64,000 nt of DNA from Parvularcula dongshanensis (GTDB taxonomy: Bacteria > Pseudomonadota > Alphaproteobacteria > Caulobacterales > Parvularculaceae): the NCBI RefSeq assembly GCF_014199615.1, contig NZ_JACHOB010000007.1, positions 1 through 64,000 of the forward strand, written 5' to 3'. The notes under the pieces are model-generated. The model was not told the DNA's origin. It ran no database searches and saw only the letters and a program-made list of their open reading frames with translations. Of the stretch, positions 32,222 through 51,285 are shown piece after piece; position 1 is the stretch's first letter; every line of letters starts with the position of its first letter. The translations under genes were made by a program, and so were the position numbers.

Positions 32222-32292
32222 ATGTAATGGACGGTGCTTCGTGCGAGGAGAGGCGAGGTGCTACCCGTGACGACGCTGCGAACGTTCCCCCG

Positions 32293-33829: not shown

Positions 33830-34093
33830 GTGGCGAAAGAAACGATCGACAGGCTGCGACGGATCGAAGGCCAGGTGCGCGGCATCGCGGGCATGATCGA
33901 GGACGGGCGCTACTGCATCGACGTGCTGCACCAGCTCTCCGCCGTAAAAGCCGCCCTGCGCCGCGTCGAGAGCGAGGTGCTCAAGAACCACGCTGCGACC
34001 TGCGTCGAGGACGCGGTGCGCTCGGGCGACCCGGAGGCGCAGCGCGAGAAGGTCGCAGAACTGATCGACCTCTTCGAGAAGCAGCGGCGCTAG
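33830..34093 (+). CDS. csoR: CsoR-family copper-sensing repressor 1
   Basis: 87 aa starting at GTG 33830, the start that lines up with CsoR2. It is an all-helical DUF156 protein. C29, H54 and C58 (in RYCIDVLHQ and KNHAATCV) are the Cu(I) ligands, with the same spacing as in M. tuberculosis CsoR (36, 61, 65). Apo-CsoR represses and Cu(I) releases it from DNA. Conserved Arg-rich helix RRIEGQVRGI contacts DNA. It differs from CsoR2 at many positions but shares all ligands. A GGGTAT box lies upstream. Confidence 0.9.
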   Translation: MAKETIDRLRRIEGQVRGIAGMIEDGRYCIDVLHQLSAVKAALRRVESEVLKNHAATCVEDAVRSGDPEAQREKVAELIDLFEKQRR

Positions 34094-34103
34094 GCGCGCC
34101 TCC

Positions 34104-34318
34104 CGCGCCGCAGGCGTAGACGCCGTCGTAGCCGACGCGCAGCGGCGTGCCCGTGTCCAACTCGAAGACGAGGCTCGCCGCCTCGCCGTCCAAGCGATCG
34201 ATCGCGAGCCGCGCACCGGACGCCTCGAGCGTGGCGCCGTCAGTGATCGAGGCGTCTCCGGCCGTCAGCGGCACGAGGTTGCCCATCGGCTTCATAACGC
34301 CCTGGCTGTTCCTGCGGC
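34104..34318 (-). pseudogene. Duplicated 3' fragment of the DUF305 gene
   Basis: On the minus strand it reads GVMKPMGNLVPLTAGDASIT and later GTPLRVGYDGVY, matching the last 70 residues of the DUF305 protein at 35631 with about nine in ten residues kept. There is no start codon or N-terminal part, and the frame runs on through the antisense of csoR1. The same 200 or so bases occur at about 35634-35831 in the same orientation, so the sorbosone-dehydrogenase gene lies between two direct repeats. Confidence 0.8.
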
Positions 34319-34351
34319 GAGCAACGAAGACGTCTGCCCCGCACCCGGCTG

Positions 34352-35560
34352 TCACTCGGCCGGCACGAGGTGCAGCAGCTGCCCGCCCTTGCCGTGCTTC
34401 TCGTCCTCGAGGATCCAGACGGTGCCGTCCGGGCCCTGCTCGATCTCGCGCAGGCGGTTGCTGAACACCCAGCGCTCGGACTCGCAGACCTTCCGGCCAT
34501 CCCAGTGGCAGTCCATGGTCACGCGAACGAGTGCCCTGGAGTTGAGGCCGGTGACGAGCGGGCTGCCCTCCCAGCCAGGAAAAGCGCCGCCGGTGTACCA
34601 GATCATGGCCGAGGGGGTGATGACGGGGTTCCAGAACTCGTCGGGTCGCCTGAACTTTTCCCTCGTGTCGTGCTCGGGGATGTCCGACCCGTCGTAGTTG
34701 TCGCCGTTCGAGACGACCGGCCAGCCGTAGTTCTCGCCCCGCTCGATCAGCTGGAACTCGTCGCCGCCCTTGGGGCCCGTCTCGGTCTCATAGAGCTCCC
34801 CGTCCGGTGCGAAGGCAAGGCCAAGCAGATTCCTATGGCCGTAGGACCAGATTTGGTCGGTCGGGCTGCCCCGGTCCGCGAAGGGGTTCCCAGGCGCCGC
34901 CTCGCCGCCCGGGGTCAGACGCAAAACCGCGCCAAGGTTCGAAGAGAGATCCTGCGCGGGCTCTTTCTTCGCGCGCTCGCCCGAAGTCAGGTAGAGGTAG
35001 CTGCCGTCCGGACTGAACGCCATCTTGTAGCTGTACTGCTTGCAGCCCGTGACGAACTAGGACTGCCGCCAGATCGTCTCGAAACCGTCCAATCGCATCG
35101 TGTCCAGGTCCAAACGTCCCCGTCCCATTGCCCCGCCGCGCGTGTCGCCATCGCCTGCCTCCGCGTAGGTCAGGTAGACGATGCCGTTCCGATCGAAGTC
35201 CGGATGCAGCGCCACGTCGCCGAGCCCGCCCTGGCCGCAATCCTCGACCGCTGGCAGGCCCTCAATGGGAGCTGAGACCGCTCCGTCTTGCGTGACGAGA
35301 TGCAACTCGCCCGGCTTCTCCGTCACAAGCATCCGACCGTCGGGCAGGAAGGTCATCGCCCAAGGCTGGTTCAACTGCGCCAGCGCGCGGACTTCGAAGG
35401 GGCGGGAGATGGGTTCGTCACGCGTTAGCTGCGTCGTACTTGCCGTCGCGGCGGCAGAGCTTCCTGCAGGAGTGACCGTGTCGTCTGCCGCCTCCGTCGC
35501 GGCGCAGGCCGTCAGCACCAATGCGGCGGTCGTCAGGGTGGCAGTCGTACGGATCATCAT
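34352..35560 (-). pseudogene. Sorbosone/glucose dehydrogenase (PQQ-type), amber-interrupted
   Basis: One 402-codon frame cut by TAG at 35057-35059. AAGGAGG sits 6 bases before the ATG at 35560, and the signal peptide ends in a lipobox ALVLTAC. The beta-propeller signatures QPWAMTFLPDGRMLVTEKPG, QGGLGDVALHPDF and (after the stop) IWSYGHRNLLGLAFAPDGEL, LIERGENYGWP identify a glucose/sorbosone dehydrogenase (PF07995), a periplasmic PQQ enzyme for sugars. Reading continues in frame past the TAG (FVTGCKQYSYKMAFSPDG), so a single base change explains it. The second half begins MAFSPDG and could not be exported alone. Both ends of the gene are intact. Confidence 0.8.
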
Positions 35561-35630
35561 GGTCTTCCTCCTTGAAAGGTGGGATTTCGGCTGGACGTAG
35601 GCAGCCAAGCAGACGGCAGGTTAGCCCCTT

Positions 35631-36536
35631 TCAGGCCGCGCAGACGTAGACGCCGTCGTAGCCGACGCGGAGCGGCGTGCCCGCGTCCAGCTCGAAGACG
35701 AGGCTCGCAGCGTCACCGTCCAAGCGATCGATCGCGAGCCGCGCGCCGGGCGCCTCGAGCGTGGCGCCGTCAGTGATCGAGGCGTCCCGGGCCGTCAGCG
35801 GCACGAGGTTGCCCATCAGCTTCATTACGCCCTGACCGTCCGAGCCGATCGCGACGAGGGCCTGCTGGCCTTCGGAGAAGCGGAACTCGCAGGCGGGGCT
35901 CGGCACGACGCGTGCGACCTCCTCCGGCGTCATGCCGCCTACGTCGAGCGACGAGACGCCGGGCTGCGACAAGGCTGCCCGAACGGACCGAACCACCGGC
36001 GTCGACCCCTCCGCCTCGCCCAGCGGGTAGCCGTCAGTCGCTTCCCCGTCCTCGCGGATGGACCGGATCAGGTACTCCATCTCGGCGATCTCCTTCTCCT
36101 GCGCGGCGATGATCTCATCGGCGAGCTTGCGCGCTCGGGGGTCGGTGATGTCCGCGCGCTCGGACACCATGATCGCGATGGAGTGGTGCGGTATCATCGA
36201 CTTCATCCAGCTCTGGTCCTCGACCGTGACCTGGCTGCGCATGAAGTACAGACCCACCAGCCACAGGACGCCCGACGCGACGAACAGCGCGATGTTGACG
36301 CGGCGGTCCTTGTACATGTGCAGCATGAAGGCGAGCATGATCGCCAGCATGGTCCCGAACATCAGCGTGGACATGAAGAAGCGCGTCTCGGAGAGGTGGA
36401 AGTCCCCCCAGCGGTAGATGTTCAGGTACATGAAGAAGTACATGAACACCGTCGAGGTCAGCACCATCGTGAGCAGACGGCCGTAGCTCTTCCAATCGAT
36501 GCTCTTCTCGTCCGAGCCGTGATCGCCGTGGTCCAT
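35631..36536 (-). CDS. DUF305 protein with membrane region and extra C-terminal domain
   Basis: 301 aa from MDHGDHGSDEKSIDW, with GAGGGAA upstream. Residues about 18-95 hold three to four membrane helices. A DUF305 domain with the SMIPHHSIAIMVSE metal-type His pair follows (about 100-150). A beta-rich C-terminal domain (about 195-301: VVPSPACEFRF; DGATLEAPGARLAIDRLDGD) is not part of typical DUF305. DUF305 proteins are found with copper and other metal systems and are thought to bind metal in the periplasm. The C-terminal 70 residues recur as a fragment at 34104. A CsoR-type box is 44 bases upstream. Confidence 0.8.
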   Translation of the reverse strand: MDHGDHGSDEKSIDWKSYGRLLTMVLTSTVFMYFFMYLNIYRWGDFHLSETRFFMSTLMFGTMLAIMLAFMLHMYKDRRVNIALFVASGVLWLVGLYFMRSQVTVEDQSWMKSMIPHHSIAIMVSERADITDPRARKLADEIIAAQEKEIAEMEYLIRSIREDGEATDGYPLGEAEGSTPVVRSVRAALSQPGVSSLDVGGMTPEEVARVVPSPACEFRFSEGQQALVAIGSDGQGVMKLMGNLVPLTARDASITDGATLEAPGARLAIDRLDGDAASLVFELDAGTPLRVGYDGVYVCAA

Positions 36537-36579
36537 GGTTCCCTCGTTCTCTTCGTGCGAGCGCGTGACGTTGCCGCCC

Positions 36580-36596
36580 TTACCCCTACCAGGTAG
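36580..36596 (-). promoter_or_regulatory. CsoR-type box, DUF305 promoter
   Basis: TTACCCCTACCAGGTAG: each half-site differs by one base or two from ATACC-N7-GGTAT. It lies 44 bases before the DUF305 start codon and behind the ATP-grasp gene. Confidence 0.4.
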
Positions 36597-36670
36597 GAGT
36601 GCCTTGTTGCGGGAACGGCTCCTAGCCCCTCCTGGTTCCCCCCTCCGCGAGGTTCGCGCACAGGGCGATG

Positions 36671-37921
36671 TCAGCCTACGAAGACCGGTGCGAAACCGCC
36701 GCCTTCGGTCAGCATGTTGGTCGCCTGCCCCTGGTAGATGCGCGCCGCCGCGAGAAGGACGGTGCCGGCATGCGTGTAGAGACGGACGTCGACCTTTCGT
36801 CTCACGGTCTCGCCATCTAGCTCGACGGAGCGTTCCGGCGCGGGGACGAAGGACTGGGCGACGTAATCGGCGTCGACGATGTCCCTGAAGACCGAGCGGG
36901 TCAGCTTCGCGCCGCGATAGACGCCCTTGCTGGCATGGCTGGCTACGGGTTTGAAGAACAGAGACTTCCGCGCTGTCCACAGACTTTCCGCGTCGCTCGC
37001 TGTGACGGCGACCGTCCGCGGGATGAGCCGTAGAGCGGAGAGGTCGGCATCGCTCGCCCCCAGGCCGCGCATACGATCGGGGTCCGAGAGAAGGGTCAGG
37101 TTCCGCTTGTGCGCGAGGAGGGCATGGTGCCGAGGCGAAGGCGAGACCAGAGCGGTTGCCTCATCATAAGCCCATCGCAGCGAAGCATGCCCTGGGTCGG
37201 ACAGGCCGAAGTCGGTCGATCTGTTGTAGACGAGGTCGACTGCACCCTTCCCACCGACCAGTCGATCGCCAGCCGCCGAGAGGCGCGACGGATCAGCGAC
37301 CTCGACAGCGATGCCGTGCCGTTCGAGCATGGCCTTCGCGAGCTCGAACTCCGGATGGAGGAACTGTGCCGAAGGCGCATCGTCGACGATCGCGACGCTT
37401 TTGAGGCTGCTTGTACGCCCGGCGAGCCACCATTCCCGACGGAAGGCTTGGGTCACGCCTTCCTCGAAGCGTTCAGCGGGCTCCTGGTCGTTCCAGCAAT
37501 GGCAAGCGGCTTCCGCGGCCGCTGCGCACAAGAAAGCGCCGCCGGCGTTGGTGTTGATCTCGATGAGGCGTGGCCCTTCATCGGTCAGATGGAAGTCGTA
37601 CCCCATGAAGAGACCTTCGCCGTGCGACTGGCTGTCGAGCGCAGAAGGTGCCCACTGGGAGACCGCTTCGCGGTAGGCCGGCAGGCGCGAGAGGGCTTCG
37701 ACGACGCTGACGAGGTCGGTCATCGCCTCGAAGTCGGTTCGAGGGACGCGGACCGAGAAGCCCGCGAAGAGATGCGGTTTGTCGGCGAGATGGCGCCCGA
37801 AGAAGCCTTCCTCGCCCGCCAGGCGGTCGACCGCGTCGACCAGTTTCGGGCGTTCGATGCTCTCACAGCTGCAGACGCTGCGGAGGTCCGAGCGACAGTC
37901 CGGTGCCGCGAAGCGTTTCAT
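36671..37921 (-). CDS. ATP-grasp-like protein with reversed motif order
   Basis: 416 aa from MKRFAAPDC, overlapping the upstream membrane-protein gene by 4 bp. The Mg-binding motif RLIEINTNAGGAF (E121, N123) lies in the N-terminal third, while the ATP-binding LFFKPVASHASKG (K324) and VDVRLYTHAGTVLLAAARIY follow at 321-395. In ordinary ATP-grasp enzymes the Lys motif comes first, so this resembles the circularly permuted ATP-grasp (CP_ATPgrasp) group. These ligate a carboxylate to an amine or thiol (peptide or glutathione-like bonds). Substrate unknown; a thiol compound would suit a metal operon, but that is a guess. Last gene of the rhodopsin operon. Confidence 0.65.
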   Translation of the reverse strand: MKRFAAPDCRSDLRSVCSCESIERPKLVDAVDRLAGEEGFFGRHLADKPHLFAGFSVRVPRTDFEAMTDLVSVVEALSRLPAYREAVSQWAPSALDSQSHGEGLFMGYDFHLTDEGPRLIEINTNAGGAFLCAAAAEAACHCWNDQEPAERFEEGVTQAFRREWWLAGRTSSLKSVAIVDDAPSAQFLHPEFELAKAMLERHGIAVEVADPSRLSAAGDRLVGGKGAVDLVYNRSTDFGLSDPGHASLRWAYDEATALVSPSPRHHALLAHKRNLTLLSDPDRMRGLGASDADLSALRLIPRTVAVTASDAESLWTARKSLFFKPVASHASKGVYRGAKLTRSVFRDIVDADYVAQSFVPAPERSVELDGETVRRKVDVRLYTHAGTVLLAAARIYQGQATNMLTEGGGFAPVFVG

Positions 37922-38379
37922 GTCGGCGACGCGGCACAGAGCATTCGCCTGCTCAGCGGGATCAGGGCCAGCGGCACGAGGAGCCACTGAAGGACGGGGG
38001 ACACACCGATCCCAAGGCCAGGCAGGATCGGCATCAGCTCGCCGTAGGACCAGCGATCCCAGACCTCCGTCGCCAGGTACTCCGCGATGAGGGTGATCCC
38101 CACGCCGACGATCAGGAACGTCGCTATCGTCTTCGTCGCCGGGGAAGCGATCCAGTGGCGACTTCGGCCCGCGACTGCAGCGCACCAGAACGCGACGAGC
38201 ACGATCCCGACGTCGCCGAAGGTTGCGATCGTGCACGTCTTGACCGCCTCCCAATGCGGCGCATCAGGTATGTCGCCGTAGAGCGGCACCTGCCAGAACT
38301 CCCAAACGAAGTTCAGAAGGAACCCGAACAGCGCGACGGGCACTTCGGGGGTGTCGAAGACCGACCGCTTCGCCATCAC
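37918..38379 (-). CDS. Membrane protein, four helices
   Basis: 153 aa, four hydrophobic segments (about 15-32, 48-68, 82-103, 123-143). Starts MMAKRSVFDTPEVPVALFGF; the second Met could be the real start. The first helix carries FLLNFVWEFWQVPLYGD, an aromatic-rich motif I have seen in small membrane proteins of unknown function. The stop overlaps the ATP-grasp gene by 4 bp (ATGA) and one base separates it from the MBL-rhodanese gene, so it is tightly coupled on both sides. Confidence 0.65.
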   Translation of the reverse strand: MMAKRSVFDTPEVPVALFGFLLNFVWEFWQVPLYGDIPDAPHWEAVKTCTIATFGDVGIVLVAFWCAAVAGRSRHWIASPATKTIATFLIVGVGITLIAEYLATEVWDRWSYGELMPILPGLGIGVSPVLQWLLVPLALIPLSRRMLCAASPT

Positions 38380-38380
38380 G

Positions 38381-39751
38381 TCAGCGTCCTTCGATCGTCC
38401 GGTAGCCGCCGGCCTTCCACGCTTTCATCGACCCGAGATAGACGTCGACGTCGGTCCAACCTGTCTGCAGCAGGATCGAGGCGGCGATCGAGGCGCGTGC
38501 GCCGCTCCCGCACATGACCGTGACGGGGGCGTTCTTCGCGAGGCTCTCCGCCGCGCTCGGCAACTCGCCGACATAGGCATGCTGAGCGCCTTCCACATGG
38601 CCCGCTTCGAACTCGTCGACCGATCGGACGTCGAGGAGCGTCCACCGATCGGCGCGCTGATCGACGCGCTCGTTGACGGCCTGCGTATCTACGAGGGGGA
38701 CCGACGCGAACGCCCTGTCCTTCGTCGCCACCGGCACGATGCCCGCGTGGTAGCCCACGACGCGGTCGTAGCCGATGCGCGCCAGCGTGCGGGTCGACCC
38801 CGCCGCTTGATCGGCGTCACGCGCGACCAGGACGATGTCGCGATCCGCGTCCAGGAACCAGCCCGCGAAGGCCGCGATCATGTCCGACGGGATGCAGTAG
38901 GCGCCGGGCACGTGCGCGCCGGCGAAGTCCGCGACGCCGCGCACGTCGACGAGTTGGGCGCCGCCGAGGTCGTAGAGCGCCTCGGGCCCCACGGGCGGCG
39001 GCAGCAAGTCGCGCGGGCTGCGCCCGCCGCCCTCGGCGTTGAGCTGCTCCATCAGCCGGAAGTAGGGGGGCTGGTAGTGATGCTCGGCGACCTTCGCGTC
39101 GATGAAGGCTTCCCGGTCCTCGATCCGAAGGCGGGGATTGTTCGCCCGCTCGTGCCCCAGCGTCGAGAACTCCCGGTCCGCCATGCCAGACCCGCAGACG
39201 GAGCCCGCCCCGTGGGCGGGATAGAGGATGGCCTGATCGCCGAGGCTCAGGATCTTCCGCAAACTGTCGAAGAGAAGTCCTGCCACCTCGCGCTTCCGGT
39301 CGGGGTAGAAGTCGGTCCGTCCGACGTCGCCGACGAACAGGGCGTCGCCGGTGAAGACGCCGACCGCGCCGTCGTCATAGGACGAATCGTGGAGGGCGTA
39401 GGACAAGCTGTCGTCCGTGTGGCCGGGCGTCTCCAGCACCTCGATCCGTGCGTCGCCGAATGCGAAGCCGTCACCCTGGCGGGCGGTGTCCGCATAAACG
39501 ATCGGCTCCGCAGGGTTCGGGCCGTGCCAGATTTTGGCGCCCGTCACGCTTGCCAGAGCGGGCGCGCCGGAGACGAGGTCTTCGTTCCGGTGCGTCTCGA
39601 AGATGTGGACGATCCGCATGCCGTTGCGGCGGGCAAGGTCCAGATAGGCTTCGATGTCGCGCCGCGGGTCGATGACGGCCGCCTCGCTGCCCGAGCCGAG
39701 GAAGTAGGACAGATGGGCGAGGCCGTCGGACTTGATTTTCTCGAGGATCAT
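38381..39751 (-). CDS. MBL-fold and double-rhodanese sulfur protein
   Basis: 456 aa. Residues 1-240 are a metallo-beta-lactamase domain of the persulfide-dioxygenase type. The usual T-H-x-H-x-D-H is here ETHRNEDLVSG, so the second His is replaced, but ETPGHTDDSLSY and FTGDALFVGDVGRTD are kept. Two rhodanese domains follow (about 255-355 and 365-456). The first has no catalytic Cys (VARDADQA); the second has the active Cys at 414 in VMCGSGARASI. Such fusions oxidise persulfide or move sulfane sulfur, which buffers copper and zinc toxicity. It sits between NmrA and the membrane protein in the rhodopsin operon. Confidence 0.8.
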   Translation of the reverse strand: MILEKIKSDGLAHLSYFLGSGSEAAVIDPRRDIEAYLDLARRNGMRIVHIFETHRNEDLVSGAPALASVTGAKIWHGPNPAEPIVYADTARQGDGFAFGDARIEVLETPGHTDDSLSYALHDSSYDDGAVGVFTGDALFVGDVGRTDFYPDRKREVAGLLFDSLRKILSLGDQAILYPAHGAGSVCGSGMADREFSTLGHERANNPRLRIEDREAFIDAKVAEHHYQPPYFRLMEQLNAEGGGRSPRDLLPPPVGPEALYDLGGAQLVDVRGVADFAGAHVPGAYCIPSDMIAAFAGWFLDADRDIVLVARDADQAAGSTRTLARIGYDRVVGYHAGIVPVATKDRAFASVPLVDTQAVNERVDQRADRWTLLDVRSVDEFEAGHVEGAQHAYVGELPSAAESLAKNAPVTVMCGSGARASIAASILLQTGWTDVDVYLGSMKAWKAGGYRTIEGR

Positions 39752-39769
39752 AAGGGTTTCCTTTCCGGA

Positions 39770-40486
39770 CTAGAGTTCGATGCCGACCATTGCGGCGACC
39801 TCGCGGGATAAGGCAGCCGGGCTTTCGTCGAAGGCGTTCTCCGTTCTGCCGAGAGACGGCTTTGCGCGTACCCAGTCATCGGTGACGACCGCATCGAGGA
39901 GGAAGTGAGCGAGGTCTGCGTTCCGTGTACGAAATACATCTGCAGGCAGGCGGCGATCCTGGACTTCGTAGCTTCCGCTGCGTGGCTTCTCGAGCAGCCA
40001 ACCGGGCCGGACCGCTGTCCAGTCGAGGCGAGAGTTCTCTAGCTGGTCCTCCATCTCCCGCATCTCTTCCAAGATCGCCGACAGGGCAGGAATCACGCTG
40101 GCGCGAAACCACGCAGGCAAGCGCTCGTCCTTCTCGACGAAGGCGGCCGAGATCACGCAGAGCCGTGACGCACCCGTCTCGGTCATTGCGGCGACGATGT
40201 TCGCGGTTCCTTTCGAGTAGAGCGGCGGGGGATCGGTCATCGCCGCAGGCGAGAAGCCGAGACCGAGCGCAGACACGACCCGGGGGTGGCCCTTCAGATG
40301 CTCGGTCAGATCGTCTTCCAGGACGTCGACCTGGCGGTGAACGGCCCCATCATCCTCCGCCCGATCCGGGACTGTGTGATCGAGCCCAAGCACCGTCAGT
40401 CCCCGGTCGACCGCTTGGTTGAGGACGTGCGTGCCGGTCTCGCCGCTTGCGCCGAAGACAACGAGGTCGAAGTTTTGGCTGCTCAT
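39770..40486 (-). CDS. NmrA/SDR-like NAD(P)-binding protein
   Basis: 238 aa. The N-terminus DLVVFGASGETGTHVLNQAV carries the G-x-S/A-x-x-x-T-G Rossmann motif of atypical short-chain dehydrogenases (NmrA/HSCARG type). There is no clear YxxxK catalytic pair. It would bind NAD(P) and may sense redox state or reduce a quinone. The gene starts by ATGA overlap with the membrane protein at 40483 and is followed 18 bases later by the MBL-rhodanese gene. Its role in the rhodopsin-copper operon is not clear. Confidence 0.75.
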   Translation of the reverse strand: MSSQNFDLVVFGASGETGTHVLNQAVDRGLTVLGLDHTVPDRAEDDGAVHRQVDVLEDDLTEHLKGHPRVVSALGLGFSPAAMTDPPPLYSKGTANIVAAMTETGASRLCVISAAFVEKDERLPAWFRASVIPALSAILEEMREMEDQLENSRLDWTAVRPGWLLEKPRSGSYEVQDRRLPADVFRTRNADLAHFLLDAVVTDDWVRAKPSLGRTENAFDESPAALSREVAAMVGIEL

Positions 40487-40893
40487 GGGCGCGTTCTCCA
40501 GCCGATACGACCACTTGCGTCGGATTTAAGTGTCAGGAAGGCGCCGACGGCGAGCGTCAAGTCCGCCCCGATACAGAGGCCGGCCCACCAACTAGGTGCC
40601 GGGGTTCCGAGCTGTGCGACCCCGACGTCAAAGCCAGCGTGGACGGCAAGAGCGACAGGCAGCACTAAGGGACGCCGGACGTAGCCGTAGAACGCCGCGC
40701 CGATGAAGAGCGCTGCGATACTCGTATTCACGGCCAGCGTCGCTGAGTCGGTGCCGATGGCGAAAACTGGGTAGAAGAAGGCGATCGCCATCAGGAGCGT
40801 TGCGTAAAAAGCTCTCTCCTTTCCGAGGCCTGTCCACCATGATACCGCGAGGAACGGGACGGCAAGACTGATTCCGATCAGGATGGGCTCCAT
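40483..40893 (-). CDS. Small multi-helix membrane protein
   Basis: 136 aa from MEPILIGISLAVPFLAVSWW, where AAGGAGGT sits 6 bases upstream; an earlier in-frame ATG has no site. Four to five hydrophobic segments are visible. The sequence AVHAGFDVGVAQLGTPAPSWW near residue 88 and the repeat-like GA stretches recall DUF4260/DoxX-like small membrane proteins, but I do not recognise a family firmly. It lies 2 bases behind the channel-like gene and overlaps the NmrA start. Confidence 0.6.
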   Translation of the reverse strand: MEPILIGISLAVPFLAVSWWTGLGKERAFYATLLMAIAFFYPVFAIGTDSATLAVNTSIAALFIGAAFYGYVRRPLVLPVALAVHAGFDVGVAQLGTPAPSWWAGLCIGADLTLAVGAFLTLKSDASGRIGWRTRP

Positions 40894-40895
40894 GG

Positions 40896-41300
40896 TCAGA
40901 CCTCCTTCTGGACCCATTGGAAGAACGCCGAGGCCGACATCGAGATGGAGAGGAAGCCCGTGAACGATTCCAGGCCTGCCAGAGAAGCAAGGTGGCCGGT
41001 GGGCATGACCTTGCCGAGTCCCAGCGTCGTGAAGGTCGCCATTGAGAAGTAGTAGATGTCCATGAAATCCGCCTCTGCAGGCTCCTTGAAGTCACCGAGT
41101 CCTAGGGCCCGGCCGAGTTCGTACGCTCCAGCGAAGGCACCCACTTCAGCTAAGTGTAGAGCGAGTAAGACCAGGCACAGGCCCGCAAAACCAGTCGGAC
41201 CACGGTTCCTGAGTTTTGGAACCGAGGCGGCGAGCACCGCGTAGTGCGTCGTCAGGATACCGACGAAGAGGACGGACGCGATCAGCAGTGCGGCGATCAC
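40896..41300 (-). CDS. Two-TM ion-channel-like protein
   Basis: 134 aa, three hydrophobic stretches. The pore region (residues 83-98) reads [18 protein letters not shown], which has the spacing of a K+-channel filter (T-T-V-G-Y-G-D) but with TTLGLGK in place of TVGYGD; it is followed by a second membrane helix ([19 protein letters not shown]). This is the layout of PF07885 (Ion_trans_2) channel modules. A substituted filter may change selectivity or remove it. It overlaps the copper ATPase start region by 4 bp upstream and is 2 bases before the next gene, all in the rhodopsin operon. Confidence 0.7.
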
Positions 41301-43693
41301 AGGGACTTCGTCCGCATGCGTAGCGCGTTTCCGATGACGGACACGGAGGACAGGCTCATGGCCGCTGCGGCGATCATCGGGTTGAGGAGGATGCCGGTGA
41401 ACGGATACAGGACACCCGCCGCGACCGGTACGCCGAGGCCATTGTAAACGAAGGCGAAGAACAGGTTCTGCCGGATGTTCCGCATGGTCATTCGGCTCAG
41501 GCGCTGCGCGGCGGCGACGCCCCGCAGGTCACCACGGACAAGTGTGACACCTGCGCTCTCCATCGCCACGTCGGTCCCCGTACCCATGGCGATCCCGACA
41601 TCGGCTCTGGCGAGGGCGGGCGCGTCGTTGATGCCGTCGCCCGCCATCGCGACCTTGCTGCCCGCTGCTTGAAGCTCGCCGACGATCCGGTGCTTGTCTT
41701 CGGGTGACACGTCGGCATGGACCGCGTCGATGCCGACCTCCGCCGCGACGGCCTCCGCCGTGCCCCTGGCATCACCGGTCAACATGACCACTTTGACGCC
41801 CGCCTCGTGGAGGAGGCGGATCGCTTCGGGTGTCGACGCCTTGATCGGATCGGCCACTGAAATGAGGCCCGCCGGTTGTCCGTCGACCGCGACGAACATG
41901 GCCGTCTCGCCGTTGCGCCTGCGCTCTTTCGCGCGCTTCTCGATATCCCGCGGGAGGCCGCCTTCACGCGCCATCATCTTAGCGTTGCCGATCGCGACGC
42001 GACGGCCGTCGACCCGGGCGTGGACGCCTTCACCGGTAACCGATTGAAAGTCCGAAGCTTCGCGCCTGGGGACGCCCCGTTCCTCCGCGCCACGAACGAT
42101 CGCCTCGGCGAGGGGATGTTCGGATGCGCGTTCGACTGCCGTGGTGAGCGAGAGAAGCTCTGTATCGTCGAAGGCCTCGGTCGGCTCGACGCCGACCAAG
42201 GCCGGGCGTCCCTCAGTCAAGGTCCCGGTCTTGTCGACGACCACCGTGTCGACCTTCTCGAAGGCTTCGAGCGCTTCGGCGTTCTTGATGAGGACGCCGT
42301 TCTGGGCGCCTTTGCCGGTGCCGACCATGATCGACATCGGTGTGGCCAGACCGAGCGCGCACGGACAGGCGATGATCAAGACCGCCACGGCGTTGACGAG
42401 GGCGAAGCTCAGTGCGGGTTCCGGTCCGAAGATCGCCCAGACGATGAAGGAGAGGATGGCGACGACGATGACGGCCGGTACGAAGATGCCGGCAACCCTG
42501 TCCACCGAGCGTTGGATCGGCGCGCGGCTCCGTTGGGCTTCGGCGACCATGCGCACGATCTGGGAAAGCGTCGTGTCCTCGCCGACCCGGTCTGCCGTCA
42601 TGACGAAGGCACCGGTGGCGTTGACGGTGCCGCCGGTGACCGTGTCGCCTTCGGCCTTTCGGATCGGGAGGGGCTCGCCCGTGATCATGCTCTCGTCGAC
42701 GGACGAGCTGCCTTCCAGCACCTTGCCGTCGACTGGCACCTTCTCGCCCGGTCGTACGCGAAGGCGATCGCCCTCGCGCAGCGCGTCGAGCGGCACTTCG
42801 GTCTCCACACCGCCCGGGTCGATGCGCGTCGCGGTCGGCGGCGTAAGCTCGAGAAGCGCTCGGATCGCGCCGGAGGTGGCGCTGCGAGCACGCAGCTCGA
42901 GTACCTGCCCGAGCAAAACAAGCGTGACGATGACCGCGGCTGCCTCGTAGTAGACGCCGACATTTCCGTCCGGGTTCCTGAAGGCGGGCGGGAAGACCCC
43001 TGGGGTTCCAGTCGCGACGATCGAGAAGAGGTAGGCCACGCCGACGCCAAGCGCGATCAGCGAGAACATGTTGAGGTTCCAAGTGCGGAAGGACTGCCAA
43101 CCCCGTACGAAGAACGGCCAGGCTCCCCAGAGAACGACCGGGGTGGCGAGCGCCAACTGGATCCACTGCGCCAAGTCGTCCGCGATGAACCGCTCGAACG
43201 GGCGATCCGGGATCATGTCGCCCATCGCGTAGATGAAGAGCGGGACGGTCAATACGGCCGACACCCAGAAACGGCGCGTCATGTCGCGAAGCTCGGTCCG
43301 GTCCTCTTTACCGACAGTGACGTCCTCGGGCTCCAGGGCCATGCCGCAGAGCGGGCAGGGACCTGGCTTGGGCGCTCGGACCTCCGGGTGCATCGGGCAG
43401 GTGTAGACCGACCCGTCGTAGCCCGGTGGGAGGGTGTCGTAGGCGCCAGCCGGCGCGGCCGGCGCAGCGGCGTCGCCGTGACAGCAGTCGTGCGTGACGT
43501 CGCCGACCTCATCGCCCTCGCGGACGAGATCCATGCCGCACTTACCACACACGGCAGGGTCGGTGCTTCGCACGTCCGGATGCATGGGACACGCGTAGAC
43601 GTCGCCAGCGTAACCCTCGGTGACCTGGTCACCTCGGACGACGGGACGGTCGTCGCTCGCTTCGAGCCCTGACCCGGCGTACGAAGCGTTCAC
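41297..43693 (-). CDS. copA: Copper-translocating P1B-type ATPase
   Basis: 798 aa starting at GTG 43693, which overlaps the rhodopsin stop (GTGA); an ATG 17 codons earlier lies inside the rhodopsin gene and is unlikely. Instead of HMA domains it has two HMBD/YHS-like motifs ([10 protein letters not shown]...CGKCGMDL and [10 protein letters not shown]...CPLCGMAL, residues about 33-57 and 97-122). The membrane Cys motif is [10 protein letters not shown], phosphorylation site DKTGTL, HP motif [10 protein letters not shown] and hinge [10 protein letters not shown]. It exports Cu+ from the cytoplasm. The translational coupling to a rhodopsin is unusual. Confidence 0.92.
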
Positions 43694-44559
43694 GATGCAT
43701 CCCCTTCGCGAGCCGCTTGGCGGGTACCTTGGGTGCCCCGCCAATCGCCGAGCGCCTGGGTAGCCGGCTCGTACCCGTCGAGCGCGCTCCGTCGCAGGGT
43801 GAACCGCGCGAGGATCACGCCGTAGACGAGCTTCGAGAAGATGTCGGCGGTCGTGAACAAGAACTGCCGCATCACGATAACGACCTCCCCCTCTCCGAAG
43901 GCAGGCAGCAAGTAGGCGATCGGGTAGAGGCCCCAGAAGAACAGGAAGTAGAAGAACAGGTTCTTCAGCCAGGGATGGAGCGTATCGGGGGTGTGCTGGC
44001 GCCCCTCACGCAGGACGCGCCAGACCCCCCAGACCAGGACGAGGAAAGGCAAGGTGCTCACGAAGCCCCAGACGAGCATCGTGCCCACGCTCGCGTGCTC
44101 GTAGAACTGCCCGATCAGGCCGGTCCAGATCATGCCGATCGCTGCGACCGTGAGGATCCCGAACCAACGGTGAAGTCGTTGCCTGGGCAGGTTCAATGCG
44201 AGCAGCAGCTGCGCGATCAGCAGCGGGATGGTGATGGTCCAGTTCGCGTAGCGATAGGCGTTCGAGAACACCTCGTCCTGGCGCGGCATCCAGCCGCCGA
44301 GAGTGTACAGGTATGCGGACTGCCAATCGGCGTACTCACGGTACAGGCTGAGGCCCGCCGCGATCATCACCACCGCGCCGAGCCAGCTTCCCAGCCGGTA
44401 CTTCGGCGCCAACTGCGTCGAAGACGCCAGGAAGAACACCGAGAAGGCGAGGTGCGCGCCGAAGCCCACCATCAGCAGGACGGCGACGAGCTGCCAGGCA
44501 GGATGCGGAAGCACCGCGAAGTTCTCGACGTTCAGATGAACGCTGCTCGAGTCGATCAT
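43690..44559 (-). CDS. Microbial rhodopsin, NTQ (anion-pump) motif
   Basis: 289 aa with seven membrane helices. Helix C reads [15 protein letters not shown] (103-117): N106, T110 and Q117 occupy the bacteriorhodopsin 85/89/96 positions, giving the NTQ motif of inward chloride pumps. Helix G holds [15 protein letters not shown], with the retinal Schiff-base Lys at 243 and Asp at 239. Close matches to sodium pump KR2 (TG.IGQFYE, WG.YP.AYL.P) place it in the NaR/ClR clade. It should pump Cl- inward on illumination. No retinal-synthesis gene is in the window. First gene of the operon with copA and the channel-like gene. Confidence 0.93.
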
Positions 44560-44602
44560 GTCGTTCTCCGTTTAGTCGCCGGCCGGTCCCGTCTGCCAAA
44601 AA

Positions 44603-44619
44603 ACACCCTACCCCCGTAC
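44603..44619 (-). promoter_or_regulatory. Weak CsoR-type box, rhodopsin promoter
   Basis: ACACCCTACCCCCGTAC has the ATACC-N7-GGTAT spacing with changes in both half-sites. It lies 44 bases before the rhodopsin ATG. A 12-base palindrome ATTCCATGGAAT follows at 44622-44633. Whether copper controls the rhodopsin depends on this box, so the call is tentative. Confidence 0.35.
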
Positions 44620-44657
44620 CCATTCCATGGAATCCGACGTATGGGAGTCGTTGAGGT

Positions 44658-45989
44658 TCACCCGTGCTCCTCGGCATGGCTCTTGGCCTCCTCGTGCGGC
44701 TCAGATCGAGCTAGGAACCACCGTTCCAGCGCAAACGTCGCCGCGACGCCGCCGTAAGCGACGGCGACGACGACCCAGTCCGACTGCAGCTTCACCGTGG
44801 TGAACGCCGCCAGGACTAGGCCGTCCAGGACGAGTGCGCTCGTCACGATCCAGGCCTTCGCATCGACCTCCTCTCGCAGGTGGCGAAGCACCCCCCAATG
44901 GATCGCCATGTCCATGATGAGGTAGAAGATCGCGCCGAGCGAGGCGATCCGGGTCAGATCGAAGAACACGGCGAGCAGGCCCGCCGCGACGACGGTGTAG
45001 ATCAGGAGGTGATGCTGAAGGTCGCCGGGCAGGTGGAAGTGCCGGTGGGGTATCAGCTTCATCTCCGTCAGCATGGTGAGCATGCGCGAGACCGCGAAGA
45101 CGCTCGCGAGCAGTCCGGACGCCGTAGCGATGAGCGCGACAGCGACGGTGAACCACTCGCCCCACTGGCCGACCGCGGGGCGGGAGGCCTCTGCCAGCGC
45201 GTAGTTCTTCGCTTCGACGATCTCAGGGACCGTCAGCGACGCCGCCACGCCGAATGCCACGATCAGGTAAACCGCGAGGCAGGTCGCGAGCGACCAGACG
45301 ATGGCCCGGCCGACGTTCTTAGTGGGGTCCTTCACCTCGCCGCCTGAGTTGGTGATGGTCGTGAAGCCCTTGTAGGCGAGGATGGCGAGCGCCGTGCCCG
45401 CGACGAAACCAAAGGCGTCCGTATCGTTCGCGATGCCATCGTCGTAGGGCACGAACTCGAAGCCGGCCGCCCACATCGCGACGAGGCCGAAGACGACGAT
45501 GCCGCCGATCTTGATGATCGCCGCCACCTGGCTGACGCCGCCGATCCACTTGTTGCCGGCCGCGTTCACGACGTAGGCGAAACCGATCAGGCCGACGGCT
45601 AAGAGAGCGACGAACAGGCCGTTTTCCTCGGCGCCGAAGGGACGGAGCGCGTAAGTGCCGAAGGTCCGGGCGACCAGGCTCTCGTTGATGATCATCGAGA
45701 ACGCCATGAGGAGCGCGCAGGCACCGGTCATCGTGCCCTCGCCATACGCCTTCTTGAGATAGGCGGCGATGCCGCCTGCCGACGGGAAGGCGTTCGACAT
45801 CTTCACGTAGGAGTATGCCGAGAAGCCGCTGATCACTGCGGCAAGCAGGAAAGCGAGAGGGAAGAGGTCGCCCGCGAGCTCGGCAACCTGCCCCGTAAGG
45901 ACGAATATGCCGGCTCCGATCATCACGCCGGTACCCATGGCGATTGTGCCCCAGAGGCTCAGGCTGCCTTCCTCGTAGTCGGTCTTCAT
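44658..45989 (-). CDS. APC-family permease
   Basis: 443 aa with about twelve membrane helices. The N-terminal GTIAMGTGVMIGAGIFVLTG is the helix-1 unwound segment of amino-acid/polyamine/organocation permeases, and YKGFTTITNSGGEVKDPTKNV sits at the helix 6-7 region. It imports or exchanges amino acids or amines; the substrate is not readable. His-rich C-terminus (EEAKSHAEEHG). The start overlaps the DUF411 stop (ATGA), and the gene is the last of the copper-oxidase operon; the rhodopsin starts 98 bases further on. Confidence 0.85.
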   Translation of the reverse strand: MKTDYEEGSLSLWGTIAMGTGVMIGAGIFVLTGQVAELAGDLFPLAFLLAAVISGFSAYSYVKMSNAFPSAGGIAAYLKKAYGEGTMTGACALLMAFSMIINESLVARTFGTYALRPFGAEENGLFVALLAVGLIGFAYVVNAAGNKWIGGVSQVAAIIKIGGIVVFGLVAMWAAGFEFVPYDDGIANDTDAFGFVAGTALAILAYKGFTTITNSGGEVKDPTKNVGRAIVWSLATCLAVYLIVAFGVAASLTVPEIVEAKNYALAEASRPAVGQWGEWFTVAVALIATASGLLASVFAVSRMLTMLTEMKLIPHRHFHLPGDLQHHLLIYTVVAAGLLAVFFDLTRIASLGAIFYLIMDMAIHWGVLRHLREEVDAKAWIVTSALVLDGLVLAAFTTVKLQSDWVVVAVAYGGVAATFALERWFLARSEPHEEAKSHAEEHG

Positions 45990-46534
45990 GGTGTCCCCTC
46001 TGACCCGTGGATCGCGAAGACGGAACGGTTGCCCGCACCGTCGAACAGGATGGTGCGGTATGTGGGCCGAGGGCCGTCCGGCACCTCCATACCCGGGCTG
46101 TTCGGCACCATGCCGGGCAGGGCGAGCCCGATGCCGTCGGGCCGTTCGCTCAGCAGGCGTTCAATGTCCGGCGCGGGGACGTGGCCTTCGATCACGTAGC
46201 CGCCGACCTCGGCGGTGTGACAGCTGGCGAGGTCGTCCGGCACGCAGAGGCGGCGGCGCACGGGGGCCAGGTCGGCATGCTCTACCACGCGGACGTCGAA
46301 CCCAGCCTCATCCGCGTAAGCTGCCCACTCGCCACAACACCCGCACCATGGCGTCTTGTGTACCAACATCGTCCTGTCGTGGGCGCCAACCTTCTCCGTG
46401 TCAGTTCCCCTGCGATCGCGTTCAACGAGGAAGACGACTGCCAGTACGACGAGGACCGAGAACGCTGTGAGGATGGTCAAAGGACCACGACTCGTCGCCG
46501 CACCGACCAAACCCTGATGTTCGGAGCGCGGCAT
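45986..46534 (-). CDS. DUF411 metal-binding protein, membrane-anchored
   Basis: 182 aa. A single membrane helix (about 19-37) anchors a periplasmic DUF411 domain: VHKTPWCGCCGEW (C64, C66, C67), then CVPDDLASCHTAEVGGYVIEG and the LPGMVPNSPGMEVP Met/Pro motif. DUF411 proteins bind copper or zinc through these Cys and Met residues and are common in copper operons. It overlaps the next gene upstream (its ATG is at 46534, the last base of the DUF2231 gene's stop) and the APC gene downstream. Confidence 0.88.
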   Translation of the reverse strand: MPRSEHQGLVGAATSRGPLTILTAFSVLVVLAVVFLVERDRRGTDTEKVGAHDRTMLVHKTPWCGCCGEWAAYADEAGFDVRVVEHADLAPVRRRLCVPDDLASCHTAEVGGYVIEGHVPAPDIERLLSERPDGIGLALPGMVPNSPGMEVPDGPRPTYRTILFDGAGNRSVFAIHGSEGTP

Positions 46535-47631
46535 CAGTGCGCGTGTCCCGGTTCGCCGTGTGGCGCTGGCTCGTCCGCCATTGATCCGGCTTCTTTGGAT
46601 GAGGAGGGTGCGGGCGTTCCAAAGCTCCAGTGCAGATGCGTGACGAGCCAGCCGTCCGGCGTCTCTTCCATGATGGCCGTCTCAACCAGCGGTCGCGCTT
46701 CGTCTCGGGCGACGGTGGTCACCTCGAAGGTGGTCAGCACCAAAGCGGCCGCTTCACCGAGCGAGCGGACGGAACGGCCGGTTCGCTGCATCTTCCGCGC
46801 GGTCGAGGCGGCGAGGTCCGATCCCATGTGGTGAGACGCGTAGGCGGCCAGACCATCCTCGACGCCGCCGCCCTCCGCGACGAGGAGTCCTTCAGAAAGC
46901 ACCGACCGCAACGCGACCTCGTCGCCGGCAGCGTAAGCTGCGGCGAGGCTCTCAGCGACCGCTTCGGGTGATGACTGGTCGACGTCGACCGTGGCCGGCT
47001 GCGTCGCCTCCGCGGTTCCCAACCCTTCGTCATCGTGCGAATGGCCGTCCACGCCGGACCCGGCTGCCCCCTCGTCGTCATGGTGACCTGGGTCGGCATC
47101 CTCACCGTGCGGGTGGCCGTCGCTCTCGACGGCGGAAGTGGTTCCCTCGCCATGGTCGTGGTCGTGGCCGTCGCCGCTCCCAGCTTCGGGAAGGCTCTCC
47201 ACCCCGAGGCCGTAGGAGTAGACTAGTTGACCGCCCCACCAGGCCGTGACGCTGAGAAGCGCCGCCGATACGATCACGCCGGAAGAGAGGGCCGTCGACG
47301 GCCTCCGAGCCCGCCGCCACCACCGCCAAGCGGCGAGCAGGACGACGAGCGTCCCGGTCGGCACCGCCCAGTTCCGGTGGGTGGTCATCGCCTCGTGGCT
47401 GGGGCCGTCATGGGCGACGGAGTAATAGGCTTGGAACCCGGCTGCGATCGTGAGGACGACGGAGACCCCTGCGAGGAAGAGGCTCCAGTCCGCAGCGGCC
47501 GATAGACCCGGCCTTTGCCGGAACCGCGGCAGGAGAGCGAGGCCGTAGAGGCCTGCGGCGACGACCGTCAGCGCGTAGGCGAAGTGGACGAGGACTGGGT
47601 GGATGTTGGGTTCGATCAGGTCGAGCGTCAT
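46534..47631 (-). CDS. DUF2231 - His-rich linker - NTF2-like fusion
   Basis: 365 aa. Residues 1-150 are a DUF2231 membrane domain with four helices and a conserved His (NIHPVLVHFAYAL). Residues about 153-212 form a disordered His/Asp/Glu-rich linker (GDGHDHDHGEG, GHHDDEG, GHSHDDEG). Residues about 215-345 look like an NTF2/SnoaL-like domain (SPEAVAESLAAAYAAGDEVA; WLVTHLHWSFG), and the last residues HGEPGHAH are again His-rich. The linker and tail should bind metal. I do not know another protein with this combination. It lies between copB and DUF411. Confidence 0.75.
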   Translation of the reverse strand: MTLDLIEPNIHPVLVHFAYALTVVAAGLYGLALLPRFRQRPGLSAAADWSLFLAGVSVVLTIAAGFQAYYSVAHDGPSHEAMTTHRNWAVPTGTLVVLLAAWRWWRRARRPSTALSSGVIVSAALLSVTAWWGGQLVYSYGLGVESLPEAGSGDGHDHDHGEGTTSAVESDGHPHGEDADPGHHDDEGAAGSGVDGHSHDDEGLGTAEATQPATVDVDQSSPEAVAESLAAAYAAGDEVALRSVLSEGLLVAEGGGVEDGLAAYASHHMGSDLAASTARKMQRTGRSVRSLGEAAALVLTTFEVTTVARDEARPLVETAIMEETPDGWLVTHLHWSFGTPAPSSSKEAGSMADEPAPHGEPGHAH

Positions 47632-47643
47632 GCTGGCTCTCCT

Positions 47644-48444
47644 TCAGTACCAAGAGCGGATACCGAGGACGAGACGGGCGTCGTTCGGATCGCCGCCTGA
47701 GTCCTGGGCGATCTGGCTGGTCTCTCCGAGCGCGGACGACCAGGCGACACCGACATAGGGCGCGAACTCACGCCTGATCTCGTAGCGCAGGCGCGTCCCG
47801 ACGCTGATACCCGTGAACCCGGCACCCAGGTCTTGATAGCCGACATCCTGGGCCGCTGCCTCGACTTCCAGCCGGGGCTGCAGGATCAGACGCTGCGTCA
47901 GCAGCACCTCGTACTCTGCCTCGAACCGGGCAGTCAGGTCGCCGTTCTCGGACAGGAACAACGCCCCATCCACCTCGAACCAGTAGGGCGCGAGGCCCTG
48001 GAGTCCGACCACTGCGTAGGTCTCGCCGGACGGCTCGAAGTCCTGCCGGATGCCCGCTTGCAAATCGAAGTACGCCGTGATCGCGCGAGAGTAGAGGAGT
48101 TGGACTTCGGCCTCCTCGAACGCGTTCTCGCCGAAGTCGTACTCGCCCTCGGACTTCACCCAGGCCTTGTTGATGTCGCCACCATAGTAGCCTTGCACGT
48201 CCCAAAGCCCGACGCCGTCCTCTCCAGTGTCCTGCCACTCCAACCGGTCGGTCATCAGGAGGCCGTAAGGCGTCTCTCCGTTCTCCTCTAGAACGCGGTC
48301 ACGGGCTCGAGCCATGACTGCTGGACCGTACACGTCGTCGGCCGCGTTCCACGGCGGGTTCTCGGGTGCCTCCTGGGCATGGGCTGGCATGACGGCTGAG
48401 CCGAACGAGATGAGCGCTGTGGTGAAAGCAAGGGGGCGCTTCAT
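47644..48444 (-). CDS. copB: CopB outer-membrane copper-resistance protein
   Basis: 266 aa with a signal peptide ending MPAHAQEA at residue 23. The mature protein is a beta-barrel of alternating strands (VQGYYGGDINKAWVKSEGEY, GFTGISVGTRLRYEIRREF) ending in an aromatic C-terminus (RSWY), as in CopB/PcoB. The usual Met/His-rich N-terminal region is short or missing. It sits in the outer membrane and works with CopA in copper tolerance. It overlaps the CopA stop by 4 bp. Confidence 0.9.
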   Translation of the reverse strand: MKRPLAFTTALISFGSAVMPAHAQEAPENPPWNAADDVYGPAVMARARDRVLEENGETPYGLLMTDRLEWQDTGEDGVGLWDVQGYYGGDINKAWVKSEGEYDFGENAFEEAEVQLLYSRAITAYFDLQAGIRQDFEPSGETYAVVGLQGLAPYWFEVDGALFLSENGDLTARFEAEYEVLLTQRLILQPRLEVEAAAQDVGYQDLGAGFTGISVGTRLRYEIRREFAPYVGVAWSSALGETSQIAQDSGGDPNDARLVLGIRSWY

Positions 48445-50456
48445 CGGCCACCCCCCATGCCGGGCATGTCTGTCATCGTGCCTGCCGGTTCCGACGCCTT
48501 CGGTCGCCCTTCCATGCCCCCATGATCCATGCCGTTCACCGGATCGACCAACGTCTCATCTGGGTTCGTCGCGACCGGTGGTCCCATGCCGACCATCTCG
48601 AGCGGCGGCCTCTCCTCGATCGGCAACACGCTGACGACCTGCATCATGCCGGCATGCATGTGGTAGAGGAGGTGGCAGTGGAACGCCCAGTCGCCGAGCT
48701 CGGGCGGGGTGATGTCCACCGAGAGCTTCTCGCCGGGCTTGGTCAGGATCGTGTGCAGGCCGGGAAGGTAGCGCTCGCCGTCCGGATCCCGGTCGTAGCC
48801 GGGAATGACGAGGTCGAAGAACATCCCGTGCAGGTGGATCGGGTGGGGCATCATCGTGTCGTTGACGAGGGTCAGCCGCACGCGCTCGCCCTGGTAGAAC
48901 TTGATGCTCTCCTTCACGTCCGAGAACTTCACCCCGTCGAACGCCCACATGTAGCGCTCCATGTTCGAGGTAAGGTGGATCTCGACCTCCCGCTCCGGAG
49001 GTCGGACGTCGGCGTTCGGACGCAGGCTGCGGAGTTGCGCGTAGGTGAGGGTCCGGTGCGGAACGTGCTCTAGCCCGATGCCAGGCTCGTCGAGCCGGTT
49101 GATGGGGTTCATCGCCGTCGTCGCCACGCCTGGGCCGTCGGGGTGACGGTGCGCCTCCATCTTCATCTCTCCGCCGCCCATGTTCATGCCAGCCATAGCG
49201 CCGCCCATCGCCGTGCCGTTCGAAGGCGGCTCCGGCTTCATCCCTTTCGTGGTCTCGGTCTCCGGGTAGGTCAGCGCATGTCCCTGACCTTCCATGCCAG
49301 GCTCGCTCGGGGTCGCGCCGGCCATCTCCATTCCGGCCATGCCGCCCATTCCAGACATGCCCATGTCCTTCATCGTCAGGAGGGGGCGGGGGCGCAGAGC
49401 AGGGGCCTCGGCGATCTGGCCGAGGCGGGGCGTCAACGTGGCGAGCGCCTGGTCCGACCCGTCGATCGACGCGGCGACGAAACGGTAGGCGCGATCCTTC
49501 GGCTCGACAATCACGTCGTACGTTTCGGCGGTGCCGATCTGGAACTCGTCCGTCTCGACGGGGCGCACGTCGAGGCCGTGGACGTTCACGACCGTCATCG
49601 GAAGGTCAGGAATGCGGACGTTGAAGATCGACATGGCCGAGGCGTTGATGATGCGCAGGCGCACGCGCTCGCCTGGCGCGAAGAGGCCCGTCCAGTCGTC
49701 AGTCGGGCCGTGGCCGTTGACGAGGTAGGTGTACTGGGCACCGGTCACGTCCGCGATGTCGGTCGGCGTCATGCGCATGCCGCCCCACATGGCGCGGTTC
49801 TCGATCGCGGCGCGGAAGCCGTCCTCCCGGGCGTCCGCGACGAGGTCGCCGACGGTCCGCTTTTGAAAGTTGAGCGTGTCGCCCATCTTCTTGAGTTCGG
49901 CGAAGAGGCGGTGCGGGTCTTCGAAGGTCCAGTCGGACAGGACCATGACGTACTCGCGGTCGTAGGGTGCGGCTTCCTCACCGGCGGCGTCGATGACCAT
50001 CGGGCCGTACAGGCCAAGCTGCTCTTGGAAGGCGCTGTGCGAGTGGTACCAGTAGGTTCCCGACTGGATCAGCGGGAAGCGGTACTCGAAGGTCGAACGC
50101 GGCGCGATGCCAGGGAAGCTGACGCCTGGGACGCCGTCCATATCGAAGGGGACGAGCAGACCGTGCCAGTGAACGGACGACCACTCGTCGAGTGTGTTGT
50201 GGACCCTCAGGGTGACCGTCTCGCCTTCCTTCAAACGAACGAGCGGCGCGGGCAGACTGCTATCGATCGCTACGCCCATCGCAGCGCGTCCATCGATCCG
50301 GACGGGAGAGCGCGCGATGCGGAAGTCGTAGGTCGTCTGGGTGGTCGGGTTCAGTCCTGTGTTTCCGCCGCGTGCGTCGCGCGCCCAAGCGGGCAGAAGA
50401 GCGGAAGCAGCGAGACCGCTGGCAGCGGTCCCCATGAAAGTGCGTCGTGTTTGCAT
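48441..50456 (-). CDS. copA: CopA multicopper oxidase (Tat-exported)
   Basis: 671 aa from MQTRRTFMGTAASGLAASAL, a twin-arginine signal; an ATG 13 codons earlier lacks the motif. All four copper-ligand segments are present: HWHGLLVPFDMDGVPG, YWYHSHSAFQEQ, HPIHLHGMFFDL and HCHLLYHMHAGMM. A Met-rich insert (MKDMGMSGMGGMAGMEM) and GMNMGGGEMKMEAH sit in the middle, as in plasmid CopA/PcoA. In the periplasm it oxidises Cu(I) to Cu(II) and sequesters copper. It follows the Cys-rich leader by 64 bases. Confidence 0.93.
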   Translation of the reverse strand: MQTRRTFMGTAASGLAASALLPAWARDARGGNTGLNPTTQTTYDFRIARSPVRIDGRAAMGVAIDSSLPAPLVRLKEGETVTLRVHNTLDEWSSVHWHGLLVPFDMDGVPGVSFPGIAPRSTFEYRFPLIQSGTYWYHSHSAFQEQLGLYGPMVIDAAGEEAAPYDREYVMVLSDWTFEDPHRLFAELKKMGDTLNFQKRTVGDLVADAREDGFRAAIENRAMWGGMRMTPTDIADVTGAQYTYLVNGHGPTDDWTGLFAPGERVRLRIINASAMSIFNVRIPDLPMTVVNVHGLDVRPVETDEFQIGTAETYDVIVEPKDRAYRFVAASIDGSDQALATLTPRLGQIAEAPALRPRPLLTMKDMGMSGMGGMAGMEMAGATPSEPGMEGQGHALTYPETETTKGMKPEPPSNGTAMGGAMAGMNMGGGEMKMEAHRHPDGPGVATTAMNPINRLDEPGIGLEHVPHRTLTYAQLRSLRPNADVRPPEREVEIHLTSNMERYMWAFDGVKFSDVKESIKFYQGERVRLTLVNDTMMPHPIHLHGMFFDLVIPGYDRDPDGERYLPGLHTILTKPGEKLSVDITPPELGDWAFHCHLLYHMHAGMMQVVSVLPIEERPPLEMVGMGPPVATNPDETLVDPVNGMDHGGMEGRPKASEPAGTMTDMPGMGGGR

Positions 50457-50520
50457 GATGTCCTCGAGGCTTGATATTCGTCCGGCGGAAGGCATGCGGC
50501 AAACGGCCGCCAGACGAGCG

Positions 50521-50999: not shown

Positions 51000-51016
51000 A
51001 TACCGTGCCCGGGTAG
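51000..51016. promoter_or_regulatory. CsoR-type box between csoR2 and copper operon
   Basis: ATACCGTGCCCGGGTAG, one change from ATACC-N7-GGTAT. On the minus strand TTGACG precedes it directly, as a -35 would. It lies 5 bases before the csoR2 ATG and 32 bases before the leader-protein start, so it can control both. Confidence 0.65.
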
Positions 51017-51021
51017 CGTCA

Positions 51022-51285
51022 ATGAACCAAGACACAATCAAGCGGCTTCGTCGCATCGAAGGCCAAGTCAGAGGTATCTCGGGCATGATCGAGGATGATC
51101 GCTATTGCATCGATATTCTCCACCAGATCACGGCCGTGAAAGCAGCTCTCCGTAAGGTCGAGAGCCAGATCTTGAAGGATCACGCAGCGACTTGTGTCGA
51201 GAGCGCGCTGTCTACGAAGGACTCCAAAGCGGGCCGCGAGAAGTTCGATGAGCTGATTGAGCTATTCGAGCGGCAGTCCCGTTAG
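51022..51285 (+). CDS. csoR: CsoR-family copper-sensing repressor 2
   Basis: 87 aa, same length and ligand set as CsoR1: C29, H54 and C58 (DRYCIDILHQ, KDHAATCV). The N-terminus MNQDTIKRLRRIEGQVRGIS is the DNA-contacting helix region. The start is a plain ATG with no obvious Shine-Dalgarno. It probably represses the divergent copper operon through the box at 51000, and itself. A second box follows its stop codon at 51287. Confidence 0.9.
   Translation: MNQDTIKRLRRIEGQVRGISGMIEDDRYCIDILHQITAVKAALRKVESQILKDHAATCVESALSTKDSKAGREKFDELIELFERQSR

Follow-up and report, generated by a model that had tools for sequence, protein, structure and literature searches.

Rhodopsins with the NTQ motif carry Cl- inward in the light and make the inside of the cell more negative; to our knowledge, the physiological role of the bacterial chloride pumps is poorly understood. 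The cop-type copper-resistance operons carry CopA, CopB and a CsoR-family repressor. A published link between rhodopsins and copper was not found in titles and abstract openings, in which subscription journals were thinly covered. Three rhodopsins of Parvularcula oceani, for which a depth of 800 m was given as the site of discovery, were described in the main text of Inoue et al. (2016, PMC5118547), namely PoNaR (NDQ), PoClR (NTQ), and PoXeR (DTL); illumination of E. coli with PoClR raised the pH, more quickly with CCCP and not at all in sulfate. That main text contains none of the terms copper, gene cluster, or upstream. For NmClR of Nonlabens marinus (PDB 5b2n, 5g28), PMC4999514 reports N98, T102, Q109, R95, N92, T228, D231, and K235 as residues that bind or guide Cl-.

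The window analysed here is a stretch of 64,000 nucleotides from the 3.13-Mb genome of the marine bacterium Parvularcula dongshanensis, a congener of P. oceani, P. maris, and P. mediterranea. The reading favoured with moderate confidence is that a known NTQ Cl- pump has become accessory cargo, captured in a variable slot of a mobile, probably CsoR-controlled copper operon.

The rhodopsin gene (43690..44559, minus strand, ATG start) encodes a protein of 289 aa with a Pfam Bac_rhodopsin match (E 1.8e-36). N106, T110, Q117, R103, D239, and K243 were all present in the protein sequence, and its N-T-Q residues took the positions of BR D85-T89-D96, as is the rule for ClR. The Schiff-base Lys K243, the counter-ion Asp D239 and the helix C Arg R103 were invariant across nine aligned rhodopsin rows. 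A PDB search gave ClR in all six top rows (E 7.4e-57 for 5b2n to 8.9e-56), and NaR structures matched only from E 1.5e-37, so that the kinship with ClR was closer than that with NaR and the proton pumps. In the rhodopsin tree, six NTQ rows stood apart from three NDQ rows with a support of 100/100; the order of branching within the six NTQ rows was not resolved. The chloride-pump call made from the NTQ motif in a first-pass annotation agreed with the family match, the best PDB relatives and these residues, and the protein is predicted to be a light-driven inward Cl- pump of known type. As a predicted protein the pump is not new: P. oceani has two NTQ rhodopsins, and the one encoded on contig NZ_JPHU01000023 was 100% identical to it. 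The P. oceani genome held four rhodopsin genes (NTQ on contig 23, NTQ at 159k and NDQ at 33k on contig 4, and DTL at 292k on contig 2), compared with three in the main text of Inoue et al. (2016, PMC5118547).

The source genome had three rhodopsins, which were the NTQ protein of the window, a second NTQ protein on contig C1 (67% identical), and an NDQ protein on C2. The product of blh, the retinal-making gene, was found on C4 by a search that matched none of the 14 control genomes. C6 had a match to lycopene cyclase with 294.1 bits, in a family that also matched 10 of the 14 controls. On the basis of these two matches, the host can probably make retinal.

The genes around the rhodopsin were arranged on the minus strand as a copper operon. 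Upstream, it consisted of the CopA multicopper oxidase (48441..50495, TIGR01480), CopB (47644..48444), a DUF2231 membrane protein (46534..47631), a DUF411 protein (45986..46534), and an APC-family permease (44658..45989). Downstream came a Cu+ P-type ATPase (41297..43693). It contained two HMBD stretches, and its match to the copper-translocating P-type ATPases of TIGR01511 scored 603.7 bits, well over the cut-off of 397. CPC, the metal motif of Cu+ P1B-type ATPases, was found in its sequence, which places it in that class. The ATPase GTG (43693-43691) and the rhodopsin TGA (43692-43690) overlapped as GTGA, and a ribosome-binding-like AAGGGG was located upstream of the GTG at 43693; the frame begins at TTG 43744 in the mechanical ORF list, so that the GTG is an inferred start. 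The ATPase gene overlapped by 4 bases a gene for a two-TM channel-like protein (40896..41300, minus strand) with a Pfam Ion_trans_2 match and a filter-like TTLGLG. It was followed on the same strand by a 144-aa protein without a Pfam or NCBIfam match (40483..40917), an NAD(P)-binding protein (39770..40486, NAD_binding_10), a metallo-beta-lactamase/rhodanese protein with homologs in relatives' copper loci (38381..39751), and M153, a 153-aa protein without a family match (37918..38379); a further close frame ran from 36671 to about 37900, its start being assumed. The arrangement reported by the first-pass annotation was thus recovered in each part: the copper ATPase beside the rhodopsin, the overlap of the rhodopsin stop with the ATPase start, the overlap of the ATPase with a two-TM channel-like gene, and five more closely spaced genes. 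RND genes were also present in the window (25186-28308 and 54187-57399). A 951-aa protein with AAA and TPR repeats was found at 8145-11000, for which no copper connection was seen.

A CsoR-family metal-sensing repressor gene (51022..51285, plus strand; Pfam Trns_repr_metal) was divergent from copA, and a CsoR-type operator-like palindrome, TACC-N7-GGTA, was located at 51001..51015 beside a promoter-like site before copA. The palindrome was found in the matching place in P. oceani and in two related loci (L106 and L107), elsewhere in L109, before the ATPase instead in L108 and L113, and not in L105. It occurred 4 times in the window against 0.67 in single-base shuffles, a count reached in 1 of 100 shuffles with the spacing fixed post hoc; the loose form TACC-N4-9-GGTA occurred 5 times against a shuffle mean of 4.0, which is the chance level. 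Weak scans gave 2 promoter-like sites (1.5 in shuffles) and 3 terminator-like sites (5.7 in shuffles). From the repressor gene and the palindrome, the operon is probably CsoR-controlled, and the near-chance results of the promoter and operator scans slightly lower the confidence in capture as accessory cargo. Further palindromes were found at 32206 (before a glutaredoxin/MauE gene), at 36581 (before a DUF305 gene with an assumed start), and at 60785 (upstream of the frame 60397-60777), and the palindromes of the window look as if one CsoR regulon covered the island. A Bacillus-type CsoR operator before the rhodopsin was rejected, since one exact 10-base half was present but the two-half pattern was absent; equally many half-site matches at <=2 mismatches arose in 16 of 100 shuffles.

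From copA to M153, 10 of the 11 gene junctions measured between -22 and +18 bases, and the sole wide one was the 98-base gap between the permease and the rhodopsin. This gap directly upstream of the rhodopsin speaks for a gene that entered the operon at random and is expressed independently of copper, as do the closest paralogs, whose neighbourhoods lack these copper genes. We consider such a pure passenger somewhat unlikely, because its 4-base overlap with the ATPase gene requires a precise junction and the weak scan detected neither a promoter-like nor a terminator-like site in the gap. A TACC-N7-GGTA palindrome was likewise absent from the gap. For the captured, copper-controlled gene that we favour, the same gap is a point against, as it could hold a promoter of a type outside the models of the scan, and the rhodopsin would then escape control by copper.

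Comparison with P. oceani contig 23 showed that positions 31000..46090 of the window were almost identical to it, with three substitutions and one one-base insertion in about 15 kb, and the rhodopsin within this block was unchanged. Beyond the block, the identity was 97-98% up to 48 kb and 76-94% up to 50559, and below 31 kb it was 79-81%. Other compared loci of the same two genomes were 71-86% identical, save one 89-base stretch at 94%. Because only four differences were found in 15 kb against 71-86% identity at the other loci, the block is a recent transfer between sister species, and the pattern is consistent with a segment of the copper cluster having been replaced by homologous recombination. 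Mixed DNA in an assembly could also give two species 15 kb in common with merely four differences; such an artefact or contamination is highly improbable, as the flanks were homologous, collinear, stepwise divergent and different between the two genomes, and the contamination estimate of the assembly was 0.9%. The P. oceani comparison also showed a 196-base stretch that apparently occurs twice in the window (34109-34304 and 35639-35834, about 93% identity).

The window is part of contig C7 (131,163 bases), whose ends had no overlap with each other. The contig is predicted to be plasmid- or chromid-like because it encodes RepC, ParA-type, and SopB-HTH proteins. Among plasmid records, the rhodopsins found were all distant, with 27.7-30.2% identity in 3 records, and the copper cluster matched 60 plasmid records, none of which covered 80% of it; the best 20 of the 60 were nearly all ATPase pieces. 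Viral contigs gave 27 pattern matches, none of them related, in a single-protein search in which only close relatives are detectable.

The Cu ATPase and the permease were searched in 81 genomes, source genome included, and were matched in 70 and 60 of them, respectively. Twenty copper loci, picked among the stronger ATPase matches, were mapped in 17 genomes, three of which contributed two loci each. A permease homolog was present near the ATPase in 14 of the 20; the order permease, slot, ATPase was found in eight, and the ATPase came first in the other six. The slot of the eight loci held an M153-like protein in three (L106, L107, and L109; M153 homologs of 48-50% identity), a small two-TM-looking protein in four (L110, L111, L112, and L119), and an Ion_trans_2-like protein in one (L115). 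In the window, M153 stands further downstream and not in this slot. A rhodopsin was found in none of the 20 loci, hence in none of the eight with the slot, and the loci of two further P. oceani copper ATPases, on contig 21 (89% protein identity) and contig 6 (75%), were read without a rhodopsin. As eight slots hold other small membrane proteins and all 20 loci are free of it, the rhodopsin appears to have arrived late at a position that various small membrane proteins can occupy. The gene order in relatives, which the first-pass annotation had named as a check on its functional link, therefore went against that link, the same kind of operon being without a rhodopsin in 20 of 20 loci.

Among 398 genomes drawn from the taxonomic order of the host, 16 had a rhodopsin match (E up to 1e-30); the 23 matches comprised 8 NTQ, 4 NDQ, and 10 DTE genes and one decayed NTQ-clade remnant. 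The remnant, in genome G853 (locus L201, about 7926-8249), matched only at residues 163-270. The 8 intact NTQ genes came from six genomes, two each from the source genome and P. oceani and the others from G400, G406, G453, and G1076. Copper-operon genes flanked 2 of the 23 matches, namely the rhodopsin of the window and its twin in P. oceani, and these are one event because both copies share the one almost identical block. Earlier searches had matched 9 of 398 phylum genomes, 9 of 81 relatives, and 36 of 385 class genomes. They provided 56 rhodopsin loci, repeats included, with flanks of mostly about 1.5 kb; the class part did not extend to weaker matches without loci, and the NTQ contexts surveyed came from outside the Sphingomonadales, Fulvimarina, and Flavobacteriia. 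Copper-operon genes were found at one of these 56 loci, again the P. oceani twin. The neighbourhood is thus unusual, as had been claimed, and in neither survey did the pair recur in independent lineages as a conserved module would. Since the copper neighbours amount to one event, a functional rhodopsin-copper link is weakly supported, and the link put forward by the first-pass annotation did not hold as a conserved feature.

The remaining NTQ rhodopsins had varied neighbours. BipA was near those on C1 of the source genome and on P. oceani contig 4, and a GMC oxidoreductase was beside that of P. mediterranea. The P. maris gene was grouped with blh, an NDQ rhodopsin, and TrkH, all in one direction (L009, 9998-14053), and blh adjoined the G1076 gene by eye. 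A TrkH-like frame was also seen by eye after the NDQ rhodopsin of the source genome (L006). In G453, the NTQ rhodopsin was 79-139 bases, depending on the start chosen, downstream of a ZnuD-like TonB receptor (L043, 5833-9318), which was preceded by a small His-containing protein without a family match; the ZnuD-like match, at 405.7 bits, fell short of the cut-off of 950. The G453 locus is a possible second metal-linked rhodopsin. The statement that rhodopsins are usually solitary or next to carotenoid genes thus held in part, for the blh neighbours in P. maris and G1076 and failed for the receptor neighbour in G453.

The pump might have been recruited because light-driven Cl- import directly aids copper tolerance, for example by powering PMF-driven RND efflux or K+ entry through the channel-like neighbour. 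The overlap with the ATPase start, the transfer of the block as one with the rhodopsin unchanged, the nearby RND pumps and channel-like gene, and the receptor neighbour in G453 are in line with such a module. We regard it as unlikely, given a single transfer event that is too recent for retention to indicate selection, the 20 related copper loci without a rhodopsin, and the low score of the G453 receptor.

Under capture as accessory cargo, transcription starting at the promoter in front of copA would read through into the rhodopsin and so cover it together with its copper neighbours. With retinal and light, Cl- import would hyperpolarise the membrane, and this respiration-independent potential may be used by secondary transporters, including RND efflux, while copper harms respiration. 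The pump would neither move nor charge-balance copper and would not be a conserved part of copper detoxification. The proposal of the first-pass annotation that anion uptake could balance Cu+ export was rejected because the sign is wrong, both processes driving the inside negative; "support" of copper handling through added membrane potential for secondary transporters is possible. As a speculation, the channel-like gene might carry a compensating cation flow; its Ion_trans_2 homologs are present in relatives' copper loci without a rhodopsin. The scarcity of light at the 800-m depth given for P. oceani in the main text of PMC5118547 counts against the favoured reading.

A bolder and doubtful proposition is that a transferable operon makes a Cl- pump on copper demand and feeds metal efflux with a light-driven potential, as a photo-assisted metal-resistance cassette. 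If true, rhodopsin phototrophy would be tied to metal stress, and a rhodopsin could move between species as the cargo of a resistance operon. The copper-linked copy, which is also present in identical form in P. oceani, offers a direct handle for growth tests of the role of chloride pumps.

Among the known systems, PoClR is a published Cl- pump with the NTQ motif from the same genus, and by the main text of PMC5118547 the assayed gene could be either of the two P. oceani NTQ copies. NmClR shares 108 of 263 aligned columns (41%) with the window rhodopsin, and its Cl- residues correspond to the identical residues N106, T110, Q117, R103, N100, T236, D239, and K243, although its host, unlike that of the window rhodopsin, is flavobacterial. 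With the cop-type copper-resistance operons, the window operon shares the multicopper oxidase, CopB, DUF411, the Cu ATPase, and the CsoR-family gene; unlike them, it has an added rhodopsin in the slot between the permease and the ATPase.
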